DNA of 33,267 bases from Parcubacteria group bacterium GW2011_GWA2_40_14 (GTDB lineage Bacteria; Patescibacteriota; Minisyncoccia; Phycocordibacterales; DATDWN01), in assembly GCA_000996025.1 (NCBI GenBank), contig LBYF01000014.1, positions 1-33,267 on the forward strand, given 5' to 3'. Positions 26,756 through 33,267 of this stretch are shown here, in pieces; positions within the stretch are counted from its first letter, which is position 1, and the number at the start of each line of letters is the position of its first letter. The notes under the pieces are model-generated. The model had not been told where the DNA came from, made no database searches, and was given only the letters and a program-made list of their open reading frames with translations. The position numbers were made by a program, and so were the translations under genes.

Positions 26756-27160
26756 ATGACTGATGACGACAAAGAATATGATGAGTGGAATAAATTGAAA
26801 AAAGAAATTCAATCTGGCACTGACGTGCCAGATTACTTCCCACAAGAAGGCGAAGTGTGGATGTCTTCACTTGGAAAAAATATTGGTTTTGAACAAAACG
26901 GAAGTGGTACTAATTTTTCAAGACCGATTCTTGTTGTTAAGAAATTTAACAATCATATGTTTTGGTGTGCTTCGCTTTCTACCAAACAAAAGAAATTTGA
27001 TTTTTATTATAATTTCACTGATCCAAATGGAGAAAAGGTTTCTGTCATTTTGGCTCAATTAAAATTGGTTAGCGTAAAAAGATTGAAAAGAAAGTTGTAT
27101 GATATTTCCAGCAGTGACCTTATAGAGATAAAAGGGAAATTAAGGAAGTTTTTAGAGTAA
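26756..27160 (+). CDS. PemK/MazF-like toxin family protein
   Basis: GEVWMSSLGKNIGFEQNGSGTNFSRPILVVKKFNNHMFWCASLSTK...VSVILAQLKLVSVKRLKRKLYDIS. Confidence 0.75.
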   Translation: MTDDDKEYDEWNKLKKEIQSGTDVPDYFPQEGEVWMSSLGKNIGFEQNGSGTNFSRPILVVKKFNNHMFWCASLSTKQKKFDFYYNFTDPNGEKVSVILAQLKLVSVKRLKRKLYDISSSDLIEIKGKLRKFLE

Positions 27161-27335: not shown

Positions 27336-27497
27336 TTGAAACACAACAAGTTTCTGAGTTTTGTAACGATTCTTTGCGTTTTGAGCCTCTGTAAAATTGA
27401 GGTTACAAACAGCGTGGGCGTGCCTTCGGCACGCCCACTCCTTGGTTGGTTCTCAACCGCTAAGTTCCATTTTGGTGTATTTATTGTACCAAGTTAG
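27336..27497 (+). CDS. Putative small secreted/membrane peptide, 53 aa, TTG start (or truncated gene 5' end)
   Basis: MKHNKFLSFVTILCVLSLCKIEVTNSVGVPSARPLLGWFSTAKFHFGVFIVPS*; SD GAGGAG ~10 nt upstream; promoter-like TTGCTT-16-TACAAT upstream; signal-like N-terminus; ends inside repeat B. Confidence 0.35.
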   Translation: MKHNKFLSFVTILCVLSLCKIEVTNSVGVPSARPLLGWFSTAKFHFGVFIVPS

Positions 27498-27838
27498 AAC
27501 CTATTTTCAAAACAAAGTGAGGTAATGAATGTGGCACGCTCCGAGAAAGTGGTAATGTGAAATGTAATCGTACGCTTCACGAAAGCCCCGCCACCGCCTC
27601 GCTTCTCTCGGCAACCCCCAAAAGAAAAAATGTCTCTTGCTCTTTTGTTTTTCGCGGGATGGATTTTTTCTAAAATGGAAAGGACATTTTTCTTTTTGGG
27701 GTTCTGCCCTCCAAGTATTCGGGCAGTGTGGCGGGGCTTCAATTCGGACTCGGTTTTGGAAAATTTGTGGTATGAATACGCCAGAAGAAATCCTTGTTGG
27801 GTTTCTAAAAATTGTTCATTTACAACCTAAAAAGGAGG
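27473..27838 (+). repeat. Modular foldback repeat, copy B (ends at the serS ribosome-binding site)
   Basis: Head TTTATTGTACCAAGTTAGAACCTATTTTCAAAACAAAGTGAGGTAATG; foldback GAAAGCCCCGCCAC (27581)/GTGGCGGGGCTTC (27728-27740) with inner arm AACCCCCAAAAGAAAAAATGTC / GGACATTTTTCTTTTTGGGGTT; tail CAATTCGG. Confidence 0.85.
27759..27838 (+). promoter_or_regulatory. 80-nt leader of the serS-MAT operon, identical to the leader of the AlaRS-like operon
   Basis: GAAAATTTGTGGTATGAATACGCCAGAAGAAATCCTTGTTGGGTTTCTAAAAATTGTTCATTTACAACCTAAAAAGGAGG, matching the reverse complement of 32366-32445. Confidence 0.85.
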
Positions 27839-27843
27839 CAGTT

Positions 27844-29133
27844 ATGCTAGATATCCGATTCATTCTCGACAACGTCGACCTGGTCAGGCAGAACACGCAA
27901 GATCGTAATGCCAACGCCGACGTCGACAAGACGGTTGCCCTGTATGGGCAGCTGAAGCAGAAGAGGCAGAGCCTCGAAGAAGCGCAGCACCGATCCAACC
28001 AGATCTCCGGACAATTCAAAGGCGCTGATGAAGCGACCCGCGAGCAGCTCAAGATCGAGGTTGCTGGTCTCAAGCAGACCATGACAACGCTCAAGGAAGA
28101 GATCGCTATCGTCGAAAAGGAGTACACCGAAGAAGTGCTCAAGATTCCCAATCTTGTCGCTCCCGACGTTCCTTCTGGCAAAGATGAGCACGGCAACGTG
28201 CCCATCAAGCATGTTGGCGAGCCCACCAAGTTCGGCTTCAAGCCACTCGATCATGTCGAGCTCGGCAAGAAGTTGGACATCTTGGACTTTGAGGCGGCGG
28301 CGAAAGTCACCGGCTCGAAGTTCTACTTCCTGAAGAACGAAGCCGTTCTTCTCGAACTCGGCCTCATCCGTTTCGCGCTGGACTTGGCGATCAAGCATGG
28401 CTTTACGCCGGTGACAACGCCGGAACTTGCTCGTGACGAGATCATCACGGCTTCTGGATTCTCTCCGCGAGGACCCGAAAGCCAAATCTACTCCCTTACA
28501 GAAGGAGGCCTGAGTCTTATCGGCACCGCCGAAATCACTATCGGTGGCTATCTATCCAAAACGGTAATTCCGGAGGAAGATCTCCCGATCAAGATCTCCG
28601 GCGTCAGCCATTGCTTCAGAACCGAAGCTGGGAGCGGCGGTCGTGAGAGCAAGGGACTTTACCGAGTACATCAGTTCAGCAAAGTCGAACTCTACCAATT
28701 CGTTCATCCCGACAAGAGCGCAGCTGCTCACGAAGAGATGCTCGCGATTGAGGAAGAGTTTTACCAAGCCCTGAAGCTTCCTTATCGTGTCTTGCTCATG
28801 TGCAAGGGCGATCTGGGAACCCCTGCCTACCGGAAGTACGACATCGAAGCGTGGATGCCTTTTGTCGGCGAAGGTGGTGGATATGGTGAGGTGACGTCCG
28901 CGTCAAACTGCACCGACTTCCAAGCGCGACGCTTGAACACCAAGTTCAAAAATAGCGCTTCTGGCAAGACTGACTTCGTCCACACCCTCAACGGCACAGC
29001 TGTTGCTGTTACTCGAACGATGCTCGCCATCATCGAGAACAATCAGCAGGCCGACGGGACTGTGCTTATTCCCGAAGTTCTGCATCCCTACATTGGGTTG
29101 CAGTCAATCAAACCGAAACGTAGGAAGTTCTAA
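27844..29133 (+). CDS. serS: Seryl-tRNA synthetase
   Basis: MLDIRFILDNVDLVRQNTQDR coiled-coil arm; CFRTEAGSGGRESKGLYRVHQFSKVELYQF (motif 2); TSASNCTDFQARRLN; HTLNGTAVAVTRTMLAIIENNQQADGTVLIPEVLHPYIG (motif 3). Start at 27844 after AAAAAGGAGG. Confidence 0.95.
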   Translation: MLDIRFILDNVDLVRQNTQDRNANADVDKTVALYGQLKQKRQSLEEAQHRSNQISGQFKGADEATREQLKIEVAGLKQTMTTLKEEIAIVEKEYTEEVLKIPNLVAPDVPSGKDEHGNVPIKHVGEPTKFGFKPLDHVELGKKLDILDFEAAAKVTGSKFYFLKNEAVLLELGLIRFALDLAIKHGFTPVTTPELARDEIITASGFSPRGPESQIYSLTEGGLSLIGTAEITIGGYLSKTVIPEEDLPIKISGVSHCFRTEAGSGGRESKGLYRVHQFSKVELYQFVHPDKSAAAHEEMLAIEEEFYQALKLPYRVLLMCKGDLGTPAYRKYDIEAWMPFVGEGGGYGEVTSASNCTDFQARRLNTKFKNSASGKTDFVHTLNGTAVAVTRTMLAIIENNQQADGTVLIPEVLHPYIGLQSIKPKRRKF

Positions 29134-29171: not shown

Positions 29172-30431
29172 ATGGACAAGGCAAACTTGCTCGTCTACTC
29201 GTCTGGAGCGCCCAAAATCGACGACACCGAATTCGAGGTCGTCGAACGCAAGGGCATCGGCCATCCGGACACGCTCTGCGACACAATCGCCGAGAAGGTG
29301 TCCCAAGCATACTCGCAGTACTGCTTGAAACGCTACAGCATCATCTTGCGACACATGGTCGACAAGATCGCTCTGTCTGGCGGCTCTGCAAAGGTCAAAT
29401 TCGGTAGTGGTGAAATGCAGAAGCCCGTCAGGCTTTATCTCAACTGTCGGTTCACCCGAACTTGGCAGCAGGAGACCATCCCTTATCTTGAGATCGTCAA
29501 GGATACGGTCTACAAGCACCTTGGAGATGTTCTGCCACTTCTCGATTTGGACCAGTGGCTCATGATCGTGGATAACACGCACTTCGCACCCGGCCCTGGT
29601 GTCGTGTACGAAGCTGATGGATCGACACAGAATGAACGCCAGTTCTTCTTCGAGATCCCGCAAAAAGAGTTTGCGGTTTTCCATGACAACAGCCTGCGCT
29701 CGAACGATACCTCGACGGCAGTAGCGTACAGTCCGCTCAGTGCCACCGAGAAGATCGTGATGCTCGTTGAGACCACGCTGAATGGGAAGGAGTTCAAAAA
29801 ACTCTATCCCTATGTCGGCATGGATATCAAAGTGATGGCCAGACGCATGAAAAAGCGAATGGACATCACTGTTTGCATTCCGTTTATCGCTGCCCACACC
29901 CCGAGTAAGGACTTCTACTTCGAGAAGCTGAAGTTCCTGGAGGGCATCATCAAGCAATTGGTGGTGTCTCAGTTCGGACAGTTCGATGTTACGGTTTCGC
30001 TCAATACAAGGGACAATCCGACCAAATCGGATTATTACCTCACACTGAGCGGAAGCGCTATCGAAAGCGGCGACGAGGGTGTTGTCGGACGAGGTAACAG
30101 ATACAACGGGGTCATCCCGTTCACTCGACACATGAGCATGGAAGCTTGCTGCGGCAAGAATCCTGTCTACCATGTAGGCAAGCTCTATACCGCTATCTGT
30201 TCTCTCATTTCCGAGGAGATTCATCATCTCGTAGGACTTGAGACATATGTGTACCTGACGTCTCAGATGGGCAGGAGCCTGTCAGACCCATGGTCCGCAT
30301 GTGTAGAGATCTGTGGTGGAAACGCAACACCTGTACAACGTCAGATGATCGAAGAAATCATTGAATGTAATCTTGCCAACGCCAATGAAACCACCCAAAA
30401 AATCGTGAGGGGTGAACTGAACCTTTTCTGA
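29172..30431 (+). CDS. S-adenosylmethionine synthetase, archaeal type
   Basis: VVERKGIGHPDTLCDTIAEKVSQAYSQYCLKRY, ALSGGSAKVKFGSGEMQKPVRLYLNCRFTR, DEGVVGRGNRYNGVIPFTRHMSMEACCGKNPVYHVGKLY. Confidence 0.92.
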   Translation: MDKANLLVYSSGAPKIDDTEFEVVERKGIGHPDTLCDTIAEKVSQAYSQYCLKRYSIILRHMVDKIALSGGSAKVKFGSGEMQKPVRLYLNCRFTRTWQQETIPYLEIVKDTVYKHLGDVLPLLDLDQWLMIVDNTHFAPGPGVVYEADGSTQNERQFFFEIPQKEFAVFHDNSLRSNDTSTAVAYSPLSATEKIVMLVETTLNGKEFKKLYPYVGMDIKVMARRMKKRMDITVCIPFIAAHTPSKDFYFEKLKFLEGIIKQLVVSQFGQFDVTVSLNTRDNPTKSDYYLTLSGSAIESGDEGVVGRGNRYNGVIPFTRHMSMEACCGKNPVYHVGKLYTAICSLISEEIHHLVGLETYVYLTSQMGRSLSDPWSACVEICGGNATPVQRQMIEEIIECNLANANETTQKIVRGELNLF

Positions 30432-30482: not shown

Positions 30483-31178
30483 TTATAGATCAAATGATTC
30501 TTCGGGACTAACTTCTTTTTTTGTTCCATTAGAAAAATAAATAACACAAGGCTTAGTACCAACGCATAATGCAACCCCACTTTCTATAACTAAACCGGTT
30601 TCTTCTGGTAGACAAACAATCGGCAAATTATGATCACTTACCCATGCTTTGAATCGGTCATTTTGTTCATCTTTAAAATGACAAGCTACTGAAAAGTTAT
30701 TAAGAAGATTGAATCCTGATACGTCTTGTAAACCTATCTTGTTTTCATCATCATGAGTATCAATTCTTTTTCCCATTATGATTGCACCGGCACTACCTCC
30801 ATATACTTGTCCGCCAGCTTCAATATATTGTATTAAAACATCGGCAAATCCAGATTCCCGAATCTCCTGAATAAGGCTCCATGTGTTACCTCCACCAATA
30901 TATATCCCATCAAACTCTTTGATGACTTCGAGATTATATTTTGATGGATCATCTACTGTTTCAAATTGAACATCAGTCCTCTCATGAAGTTCTGTAATGT
31001 TTTTCATCCACAAATGTGCTGTGGAATAAAGTTTGTGCCCACGAAGGGCAATAGGTATGTATAAAAAGCGTCCATTTTTGGGCAATGTATCAAAAAAAAA
31101 TTTGTCGAGGGGGAATGATTGCTTTTCATTACCACCCCCCGACAAATATATTCTGTTGTTCTCCTTTAGGTTTTGCAT
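30483..31178 (-). CDS. Peptidase E-like (family S51) protein
   Basis: IYLSGGGNEKQS, FDGIYIGGGNTWSLIQ, GGQVYGGSAGAIIMGKRIDTH (Ser nucleophile), GLQDVSGFNLLNNFSVACHF. Start overlaps the end of the upstream gene. Confidence 0.85.
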   Translation of the reverse strand: MQNLKENNRIYLSGGGNEKQSFPLDKFFFDTLPKNGRFLYIPIALRGHKLYSTAHLWMKNITELHERTDVQFETVDDPSKYNLEVIKEFDGIYIGGGNTWSLIQEIRESGFADVLIQYIEAGGQVYGGSAGAIIMGKRIDTHDDENKIGLQDVSGFNLLNNFSVACHFKDEQNDRFKAWVSDHNLPIVCLPEETGLVIESGVALCVGTKPCVIYFSNGTKKEVSPEESFDL

Positions 31179-32359
31179 GTTTGTATCGCTTTGCGTAACT
31201 CGTAAATGTTGATGTTACAAGTATACACCAAGCGGTCGAAATAAGCTTCTGTCGTCTCGTCTCGAGGTGGCGGAAGCTTTAACGCTTCACAAACTTTCAG
31301 GTTGACGAACCTCTCGATCTCCAAGCGTGCAAGCTGGACAGTGGTGTCTCGACTGATGGACGGATTGATGAACTGCGCCCAGTAATCAAAGTAATACGCA
31401 AGAATGCTATACACATTCACCCCGTAGTACTTTTCACTAAGCACCTTTGCGAATCGCCTAAACTGAAGGCCTGGACCTTTATTTGCAGCTTGGACACCGC
31501 ACAGGACCAGAAGCGCCATAGTTCGACACGAATCGAACATCTCTCGTGTACCTGTCGCTGTCCACGGCATCAGCGTGTCGAAATAGGAATCAGTCTTGTT
31601 TACGACCCACGCTACTCTTTCGAGACCGAAGCCGATATCACTGATTGCAATGGCTGGGCGATTTGGCTGGGGAGTAAGAAGATAGGCGGCATCACCAAGC
31701 TCAAGTCCTCCGTAGGAGAAAAAGAGCTCAAGCGCCGAAAATTTCCCGGTTCCCCAATCGTTTACAGATGTTCTCATGACGATGATGAAGTCGTTCATGT
31801 GAAGACCGAGCTTGGAGAGAATCGTGCACCAATGATCTACTGACTGCAAATGCTCGGAGAACTCGGCTCCCATTTTTTCAGTGCATACGTTCACGAAGGA
31901 AGTTGACGTTCCTTCCTGTGACTCGACATGCGGCTGAAACTGCATACGAACGCATGGCTGTGCCACGAACACCTTGTCATTCCGAATTTCCTGGTTTCGA
32001 TGAATGATGTCATCAAACATCTGAACGCCGGCGATGACCAGGTCAGTCTGACCTTCGAAATTAGCGATGTTCATAGGGGTTGCCACATTGAAGCCTGTCG
32101 AGCGAAAGTATTCGCTTATTCGTGAGCTGATTTGCGCTGGTGTCAGCATTCTCTTTCGTTTGCTGTATGTGCGAAAAGGATAGTCTCCCTTATCGCACTT
32201 ATGCCAGCCACAAACCGAGACATCCATCTTGGCAGATGTCTTAGAGAAAAAAGTCCTGCCGCAAGTGCTACACGAGTGCATTTCCCATTTCCTTTCGGCC
32301 ATAAATTTCTTCACAGCCTCCGAGTTCGTATCCACGCTGGATTCCTGTTCGGATTTCAT
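31166..32359 (-). CDS. Alanyl-tRNA synthetase-like catalytic protein, archaeal-style N-terminus, no editing or C-Ala domain
   Basis: Zn-like CSTCGRTFFSKTSAKMDVSVCGWHKCDKGDYPF; VFVAQPCVRMQF (motif 2-like); ISDIGFGLERVAWVVNKTDSYFDTLMPW (motif 3). ~397 aa. Start at ATG 32359 after AAAAAGGAGG. Confidence 0.75.
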   Translation of the reverse strand: MKSEQESSVDTNSEAVKKFMAERKWEMHSCSTCGRTFFSKTSAKMDVSVCGWHKCDKGDYPFRTYSKRKRMLTPAQISSRISEYFRSTGFNVATPMNIANFEGQTDLVIAGVQMFDDIIHRNQEIRNDKVFVAQPCVRMQFQPHVESQEGTSTSFVNVCTEKMGAEFSEHLQSVDHWCTILSKLGLHMNDFIIVMRTSVNDWGTGKFSALELFFSYGGLELGDAAYLLTPQPNRPAIAISDIGFGLERVAWVVNKTDSYFDTLMPWTATGTREMFDSCRTMALLVLCGVQAANKGPGLQFRRFAKVLSEKYYGVNVYSILAYYFDYWAQFINPSISRDTTVQLARLEIERFVNLKVCEALKLPPPRDETTEAYFDRLVYTCNINIYELRKAIQTCKT

Positions 32360-32365
32360 GATCGT

Positions 32366-32738
32366 CCTCCTTTTTAGGTTGTAAATGAACAATTTTTAGA
32401 AACCCAACAAGGATTTCTTCTGGCGTATTCATACCACAAATTTTCGTTTTATACAAGCCCGCGCCCGAATTGAAGCCCCGCCACACTGCCAGAATATCTT
32501 TACGGGCAGAACCCCAAAAAGAAAAATGCCCTTTCCATTTTAGAAAAAATCCACCCCCGCGAAAATCAAAAGAGCAAGGAACATTTTTTTCTTTTTGGGG
32601 TTGCCGAGTGAAGCGAGACGGTGGCGGGGCTTTCGTGAAGCGTACGATTACATTTCACATTACCACTTTCTCGGAGCGTGCCACATTCATTACCTCACTT
32701 TGTTTTGAAAGTAAGTGCGAGCTTGGTACAATAAACAC
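32366..32738 (-). repeat. Modular foldback repeat, copy C (inverted relative to B)
   Basis: Reverse complement aligns with copy B nearly end to end, including head, foldback, tail and leader. Confidence 0.88.
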
Positions 32739-32797
32739 ACAAAGGAAAAAATCTAAAGCAGTTTAGATTTTTTCCCTTGTGTGTTTATTGTACCAAG
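32722..32797. repeat. 76-bp palindrome at the C/D head-to-head junction
   Basis: CTTGGTACAATAAACACACAAAGGAAAAAATCTAAA-GCAG-TTTAGATTTTTTCCCTTGTGTGTTTATTGTACCAAG, one mismatch. Confidence 0.88.
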
Positions 32798-33267
32798 TCC
32801 GAACCTATTTTCAAAACAAAGTGAGGTAATGACTTCGCACGCCCCGCGTACGTGGTGGTGTGAAATGAAGTCGTACGCTCCGATACGAATTCCGTCACGG
32901 CACAGCCTCCGCTCCACCAGACTGTCGGGTACGACAGTCTGCCTCCGCTTCTGCTGTTCCGCTCCGCCCTCGCCTCGCCACCACGCATTCTGTTTTGATT
33001 TGGCGGGGGTTTTCTCTTTTTGATTTTGTATGGTGGTGGCGGGCGAGGTCGGGTTTCTCCTTGAGGGGAGAAACTGACGGAATTCTTAGTGCCAATTCGG
33101 TGGACTCGGTTTTGCCAAAACTATTTTCTGGGGATTTTGATTTGGCAAAACCGAGACTAATATTTTTGAAATTCGGCGAGATTCGGGTTTGGATTCCGCC
33201 CGCAGAAAGGGGTCTGGGGAATGAATGCGGGCGGGCTTTGAGTTTCGGATTTTGGCGGGGCTGGCTA
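32737..33267 (+). repeat. Modular foldback repeat, copy D (direct repeat of A; runs toward the window edge)
   Basis: Shares with A the head, CAGACTGTCGGGTACGACAGTCTG (32918-32941), GTTTCTCC..GGAGAAAC, GAATTCCGTCA/TGACGGAATTC closure (32887-32897/33075-33085) and later stems. Confidence 0.8.

Follow-up and report, generated by a model that had tools for sequence, protein, structure and literature searches.

AlaRS-like aminoacyl transferases are, as far as we could find, known from very few natural-product clusters. In the ascamycin pathway, AcmF (GenBank KJ817374) is a truncated alanyl-tRNA synthetase (AlaRS) of 370 aa, made up of the catalytic core and the tRNA-recognition domain only, that takes alanine from Ala-tRNA and places it on a nucleoside sulfamate; a second AlaRS, AcmD, provides the charged tRNA and is resistant to the product, and a hydrolase, AcmE, takes the alanine off (PMC12945691, PMC4257720). 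In albomycin biosynthesis, AbmF, which a review names only “an aminoacyl-tRNA synthetase”, condenses a nucleoside with seryl-adenylate apparently supplied by AbmK, a second, divergent seryl-tRNA synthetase (SerRS) that also confers albomycin immunity (PMC9032320). VlmL, named in the same review, is a cluster-borne SerRS that feeds serine into valanimycin.

The window considered here is a whole stretch of 33,267 nucleotides (contig LBYF01000014.1) from the Patescibacteria member Parcubacteria group bacterium GW2011_GWA2_40_14, referred to below as the host (genome G000). On its minus strand, an open reading frame at 31166..32359, starting with ATG at 32359 and stopping with TAA at 31166, encodes a protein of 397 aa with a Zn-ribbon-like N-terminus, a class II core, and an AlaRS-type helical tRNA-recognition domain. 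The original prediction, made from the sequence alone, had described an AlaRS-like protein of about this length with a Cys-rich, archaeal-AlaRS-style N-terminus and the class II motifs QPCVRMQF and GFGLERVAW, and the frame, the N-terminus (CSTCG...CGWHKC), and both motifs (motif 2 and motif 3, respectively) proved to be there. The Zn-ribbon-like stretch, CxxC...CxxxxC, spans residues 30-55 (32195..32272, minus strand), is archaeal-AlaRS-like, and is absent in two homologous loci (L010 and L040).

Descent from AlaRS, also part of the prediction, was supported by several comparisons. Matches to NCBIfam A-tRNA_syn_arch (TIGR03683; E 5.5e-8, 31.5 bits against a cut-off of 744.7) and alaS (TIGR00344; E 4e-5, 22 bits against a cut-off of 457) lie far below the family cut-offs, and a PDB search with the single sequence returned marginal matches, the best AlaRS at E 0.023. 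A family profile built from ten homologues matched Archaeoglobus fulgidus AlaRS in the PDB at E 1.5e-9, and hhalign of the family against seven canonical AlaRS gave a probability of 96.8 and E 2.5e-10 over residues 72-333. The Pfam search that had been proposed as a check succeeded only in part, in that AlaRS homology came from NCBIfam and the profiles, whereas Pfam held no match at E<=0.01, no AlaRS family (PF01411) even at E<=10, and no AlaX-type match; an AlaX trans-editing protein was ruled out by the lack of a tRNA_SAD editing-domain match. The AlphaFold model of the whole protein was poor (pLDDT 47.5), and its fold search was set aside as evidence. Modeled separately, the C-terminal 136 residues reached a mean pLDDT of 86.8, and the first 14 PDB matches were all AlaRS structures, including the AlaRS-tRNA complex 3WQY, an assignment that, with E values of only 0.1-0.6, rests on the agreement among the matches. 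The profile-profile comparison and the C-terminal matches together indicate that the AlaRS core and the tRNA-recognition helices are kept and that the protein stops before the editing domain; since its end at 397 aa falls about where the AlaRS tRNA-recognition domain ends, the editing and C-Ala domains are missing, as predicted. Judged by these comparisons, the protein represents a divergent AlaRS-like family of AlaRS origin. It retains motifs 2 and 3 with the catalytic Arg residues and the Ala-binding Asp of canonical AlaRS, but falls short of the family cut-offs and lacks the motif-2 loop His and Glu, the Asp-plus-Asn tRNA reader, and the editing and C-Ala domains.

In AlaRS, an Arg holds the ATP alpha-phosphate, a Phe and an Arg stack on the adenine, and an Asp holds the amino group of alanine (PMC12143591). 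In the alignment, these ATP-, adenine-, and amino-group-holding residues correspond to R138, F155, R248, and D241, which, like W202 and E220, are invariant in ten aligned members. R138, the alpha-phosphate Arg, lies in motif 2 (residues 134-141; 31937..31960, minus strand), while D241, equivalent to E. coli Asp235, and the adenine-stacking R248 lie in the motif 3 region ISDIGFGLERVAW (residues 239-251; 31607..31645, minus strand). The motif-2 loop is altered, E. coli H87 and E92 (present in 7/7 and 6/7 of the aligned canonical AlaRS) being replaced by T151 and V156, and the Asn of the amino-acid pocket (N213) is D223 here and Glu in L040. From these residues, the pocket seems suited to a ligand resembling aminoacyl-adenosine, and its ATP site is altered. 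Residues N303 and D400 of E. coli AlaRS read G3:U70. The Asn is kept as N293 (31481..31483, minus strand) in 8/10 aligned members and is His in L032 and L040, the two most divergent, while its partner, the Asp of YDTYGFP, is lost in the family in an alignment read by eye.

Homologues were gathered from genome contigs and from searches of related genomes. The ten found are 91, 85, 80, 76, 75, 72, 60, 60, 40, and 25-26% identical to the protein of the window. For the four homologue pairs with resolvable dS, dN/dS was 0.061-0.092, indicating purifying selection, and the nine homologues whose frames were compared contain no internal stops; the homologue in L010 looks degenerate, its Cys ligands being absent and its frame ending early. 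The open reading frame is neither a chance frame nor a decayed one. A recently truncated, decaying AlaRS, the contrary case raised with the original prediction, is not what was found, and a recent pseudogene is ruled out by the dN/dS values and by conservation. Searches of phage records, plasmid records, and IMG/VR with the protein or its profile returned no relatives. With the more divergent L040 member as query, the only matches were weak ones (E 0.02-0.07) to Rhizobium “alanine--tRNA ligase-related” proteins of about 280-300 aa that lack the gene context described below; on two Rhizobium plasmids (L097, L098), such stand-alone proteins adjoin an Xre/RES toxin-antitoxin pair.

A separate alaS, which the original prediction had suggested looking for, is present elsewhere in the host genome (L035:1568-2908, G000:C13), ruling out the protein of the window as the sole housekeeping AlaRS. 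This AlaRS is only 447 aa long, ends before the editing domain, and reads LFSTYGFP where others read LYDTYGFP; in a relative of the same genus (L004), AlaRS has 542 aa and a CGGPH motif. The prediction had argued from the missing editing domain to a paralog with an unusual acceptor. A non-tRNA acceptor remains the best reading, but because the AlaRS of the host likewise stops short of an editing domain, the absence of this domain is weak evidence by itself. Stronger evidence is provided by a conserved gene set that had gone unnoticed, consisting of a second SerRS, an archaeal-type S-adenosylmethionine synthetase (MetK), and a PepE-like peptidase.

In the window, serS2 (27844..29133, plus strand; a full SerRS of 429 aa above the curated cut-off) and metK (29172..30431, plus strand; PF01941, 419 aa, with conserved motifs) face pepE (30483..31178, minus strand; Peptidase_S51 family, 231 aa, with a conserved GGS(A/T)GA motif) and the AlaRS-like gene. 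The start of pepE and the end of the AlaRS-like gene share 13 nt, as they do in L005, L006, L008, L009, L034, and L039. This convergent order is shared by L005, L007, and L039, while in L006, L008, and L009 serS2 is divergent from the AlaRS-like gene, the L009 contig ending after pepE. SerRS2 and the PepE-like protein accompany the AlaRS-like gene in the window, L005-L009, and L039; by genome, the second synthetase is missing from the cassette in G071, G104, and G220, and by locus, from the set in L010, L032, and L034. The cassette metK of L006 survives only as a C-terminal piece fused to part of guaA, and that genome has another PF01941 gene; the fused frame (L006:9917-11059) combines a GuaA-like N-terminal part with the C-terminal part of this MetK, an arrangement suggestive of recombination of the cassette into guaA. 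No tRNA genes lie inside the cassettes, Rfam returned only chance-level matches below the gathering score, and no halogenase, sulfotransferase, other nucleoside-building gene, or exporter was found in the cassette. Searches of the open-access literature turned up no description of this gene combination, which may have been published outside it.

Archaeal-type metK (PF01941) was found in 10/11 genomes with the AlaRS-like gene and in 0/15 relatives without it; in the one exception (G103), the contig breaks off after pepE. In a sample of the phylum, PF01941 occurred in 11/380 genomes, including 3/3 with the AlaRS-like gene. Bacterial-type MetK was found in only 3/26 genomes checked, and the cassette MetK is thus the only MetK found in this host. 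Elsewhere in Patescibacteria, archaeal-type MetK genes (L069, L070, L072, L073, L074) adjoin HPr-kinase-like, HAD, CofE-like, or glycosyltransferase genes, which suggests several MetK-centred pathways.

The synthetase beside metK varies. SerRS2 of the host is 37% identical to its housekeeping SerRS (contig C9), and G099, G100, and G102 likewise encode two SerRS each. In G101 and G103 the cassette SerRS is the only one found, so the cassette copy could be the housekeeping enzyme there; most genomes are draft assemblies, and missing contigs can affect these counts. In G562, the genes after metK are the AlaRS-like gene, a fused alpha-beta GlyRS, and then glycosyltransferase, PIG-L, and acetyltransferase-like genes, with a separate dimeric GlyRS elsewhere in the genome. 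The cluster in G673 runs from metK to a PepE-like gene and then an archaeal-type ProRS, with a bacterial-type ProRS elsewhere in the genome; a search of this genome detected no AlaRS-like gene, and a similar glycosyltransferase is common to G562 and G673. A second, distinct class II synthetase thus stands beside metK in three versions, SerRS2, alpha-beta GlyRS, and archaeal-type ProRS. Just upstream of the MetK-PepE-ProRS cluster (L068:3735-5906), a reverse-transcriptase-like gene adjoins one for a small protein whose end is C-type-lectin-like; the pair may be a diversity-generating retroelement.

Sequence identities further indicate that the cassette moves horizontally between distantly related Patescibacteria: between G000 and G099, identity is 94.4% for the cassette SerRS and 55.8% for the housekeeping SerRS. 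In the window, the cassette lies between inverted repeats of about 370 nt. The left arm (27472..27838) ends just before serS2 and the right arm (32366..32743) just before the AlaRS-like start; the inner 80 nt of the left are 100% complementary to the right, and both operons thereby have near-identical leaders. Serine-recombinase-like genes, identified by reading the sequence, adjoin the set in L010 and L039. The repeats belong to a family with diverged pieces on other host contigs, two of them near contig ends. Beside the right repeat lies a near-perfect hairpin (32687-32832) with 71-nt arms, 92% complementary, and a 4-nt loop, and a PemK/MazF-like toxin gene (26756-27160) lies just outside the cassette.

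The protein has the same domain cut as AcmF, here known by its description and not by its sequence, and the neighbors of both are a second full synthetase and a hydrolase, AcmD and AcmE there, SerRS2 and PepE here. The differences are several: at the key Asn and Asp, AcmF has Gln219 and Glu232 (N219Q, D232E), in contrast with D223 and D241; AcmF is without the Asp-plus-Asn tRNA reader, of which close members of the present family retain the Asn; the window set has no sulfamate genes but has MetK, and its hydrolase belongs to family S51; and AcmD is an AlaRS, whereas the second synthetase of the cassettes is a SerRS, GlyRS, or ProRS. The likeness to AbmF and AbmK, AbmF being known here by description only, is the second, divergent SerRS beside a synthetase-like enzyme, but the PLP, radical SAM, and siderophore genes of the albomycin cluster are absent from the window set. 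VlmL is likewise a cluster-borne SerRS, although no AlaRS-like partner is mentioned for it (PMC9032320). Archaeal AlaRS (TIGR03683) shares the Zn-ribbon-like N-terminus, class II motifs, helical recognition domain, and Ala-pocket Asp; unlike it, the present protein has no editing or C-Ala domain, has a changed motif-2 loop, and is not the only AlaRS of its genome. Plasmid-borne MetK clusters of Streptomyces and Ca. Megaera have an archaeal-type MetK 38-43% identical to that of the cassette and biosynthesis-like neighbors, but these are a sugar epimerase, a Gfo/Idh oxidoreductase, and a NUDIX protein, with no AlaRS-like gene annotated; on the Streptomyces plasmids (L041, L042) the conserved cluster also contains a glycosyltransferase and a carbamoyltransferase. 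By analogy, the protein probably works like AcmF or AbmF, and we do not assign it as a member of either.

Given that SerRS2, the AlaRS-like protein, and PepE fill roles as in the ascamycin and albomycin pathways, with MetK as an extra member, we favor an aminoacyl transferase whose acceptor is of the adenosyl type. We would put at about an even chance that the protein, in the manner of AcmF or AbmF, places an amino acid, probably serine here, on such an acceptor, with SerRS2 as supplier and PepE as remover. The analogy draws on the AcmF-like domain cut, the kept pocket, the second synthetase, the co-occurrence with metK, the persistence of the gene set through rearrangement, and its mobility; against it count the lack of exporter and nucleoside genes, the retained D241, the second synthetase that is sometimes missing, and the reduced metK of L006. 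As residue 241 stays Asp and is not Glu as in AcmF, ATP-dependent activation is possible, and the protein may itself be a ligase that adenylates Ala, Ser, or another amino acid and attaches it to a small molecule independently of tRNA and SerRS2. Such a ligase would accord with the invariance of R138, F155, R248, and D241, the alpha-phosphate, adenine, and amino-group holders of AlaRS, and with cassettes that have no second synthetase (G071, G220); the replaced motif-2 loop (H87 to T151, E92 to V156) and the Asp or Glu at N213 speak against it, three unrelated second synthetases near metK would be left unexplained, and we place it on the unlikely side.

If the protein loaded alanine or some other amino acid onto one special tRNA, belonging to the host or to a mobile element, this would explain why the helical tRNA-recognition domain is kept and the G3:U70-reading Asn persists in most members. 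We think this improbable, as the partner Asp is lost, the Asn has become His in the two most divergent members, the cassettes contain no tRNA gene, and the host has its own AlaRS; nothing pointed to the specialised tRNA or to the carrier that the original prediction had entertained as acceptors. The set could also make no product and give immunity to neighbors' aminoacyl-nucleoside inhibitors of synthetases. SerRS2 would then be the resistant target and PepE the hydrolase, and the AlaRS-like protein would act as a sink or modifier. The set is small and mobile, lacks an obvious exporter or scaffold-building enzymes, and includes a PepE-like hydrolase and a second divergent SerRS of the kind that confers albomycin immunity (PMC9032320). 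MetK, however, is in nearly every cassette with no obvious place in pure immunity, and the AlaRS-like protein is far from AlaRS, unlike a resistant copy, which makes this quite improbable. Several synthetase paralogues are regulatory, and a non-catalytic regulatory or structural pseudo-synthetase of the HisZ kind would follow that precedent, but even at 25% identity the active-site residues rank among the best-conserved positions, and the linked genes encode enzymes, not regulators, and there is very little chance that this is the answer.

Under the favored transferase reading, the protein would be an AlaRS-derived enzyme no longer serving ordinary translation and part of a small, horizontally moving pathway. 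It would hand an activated amino acid on to a small acceptor, which probably contains adenosine. In the window, the amino acid would probably be serine, arriving as Ser-tRNA or seryl-adenylate from SerRS2, which may double as a product-resistant copy; MetK would provide S-adenosylmethionine (SAM) as acceptor or acceptor precursor, and the PepE-like peptidase may undo the aminoacylation, for immunity or processing. The presence of MetK and the dipeptidase family of PepE prompt the guess that the acceptor is SAM itself. The set might even form a closed minimal pathway, in which MetK makes SAM in hosts mostly lacking any other MetK, SerRS2 activates serine, the AlaRS-like protein links the seryl group with SAM or with a nucleoside derived from it, and the PepE-like dipeptidase then splits the product; we hold this to be unlikely, but if true, Patescibacteria would have a mobile system based on aminoacyl-SAM or an aminoacyl-nucleoside, in which the spare synthetase beside metK (Ser, Gly, or Pro) sets the amino acid.

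The Patescibacteria genomes concerned are about 0.6-1.3 Mb and are seldom credited with such pathways. If the transferase reading is correct, the cassette would give these hosts a MetK of their own, and a conserved, mobile version with interchangeable second synthetases would extend aminoacyl-transfer chemistry to Patescibacteria.
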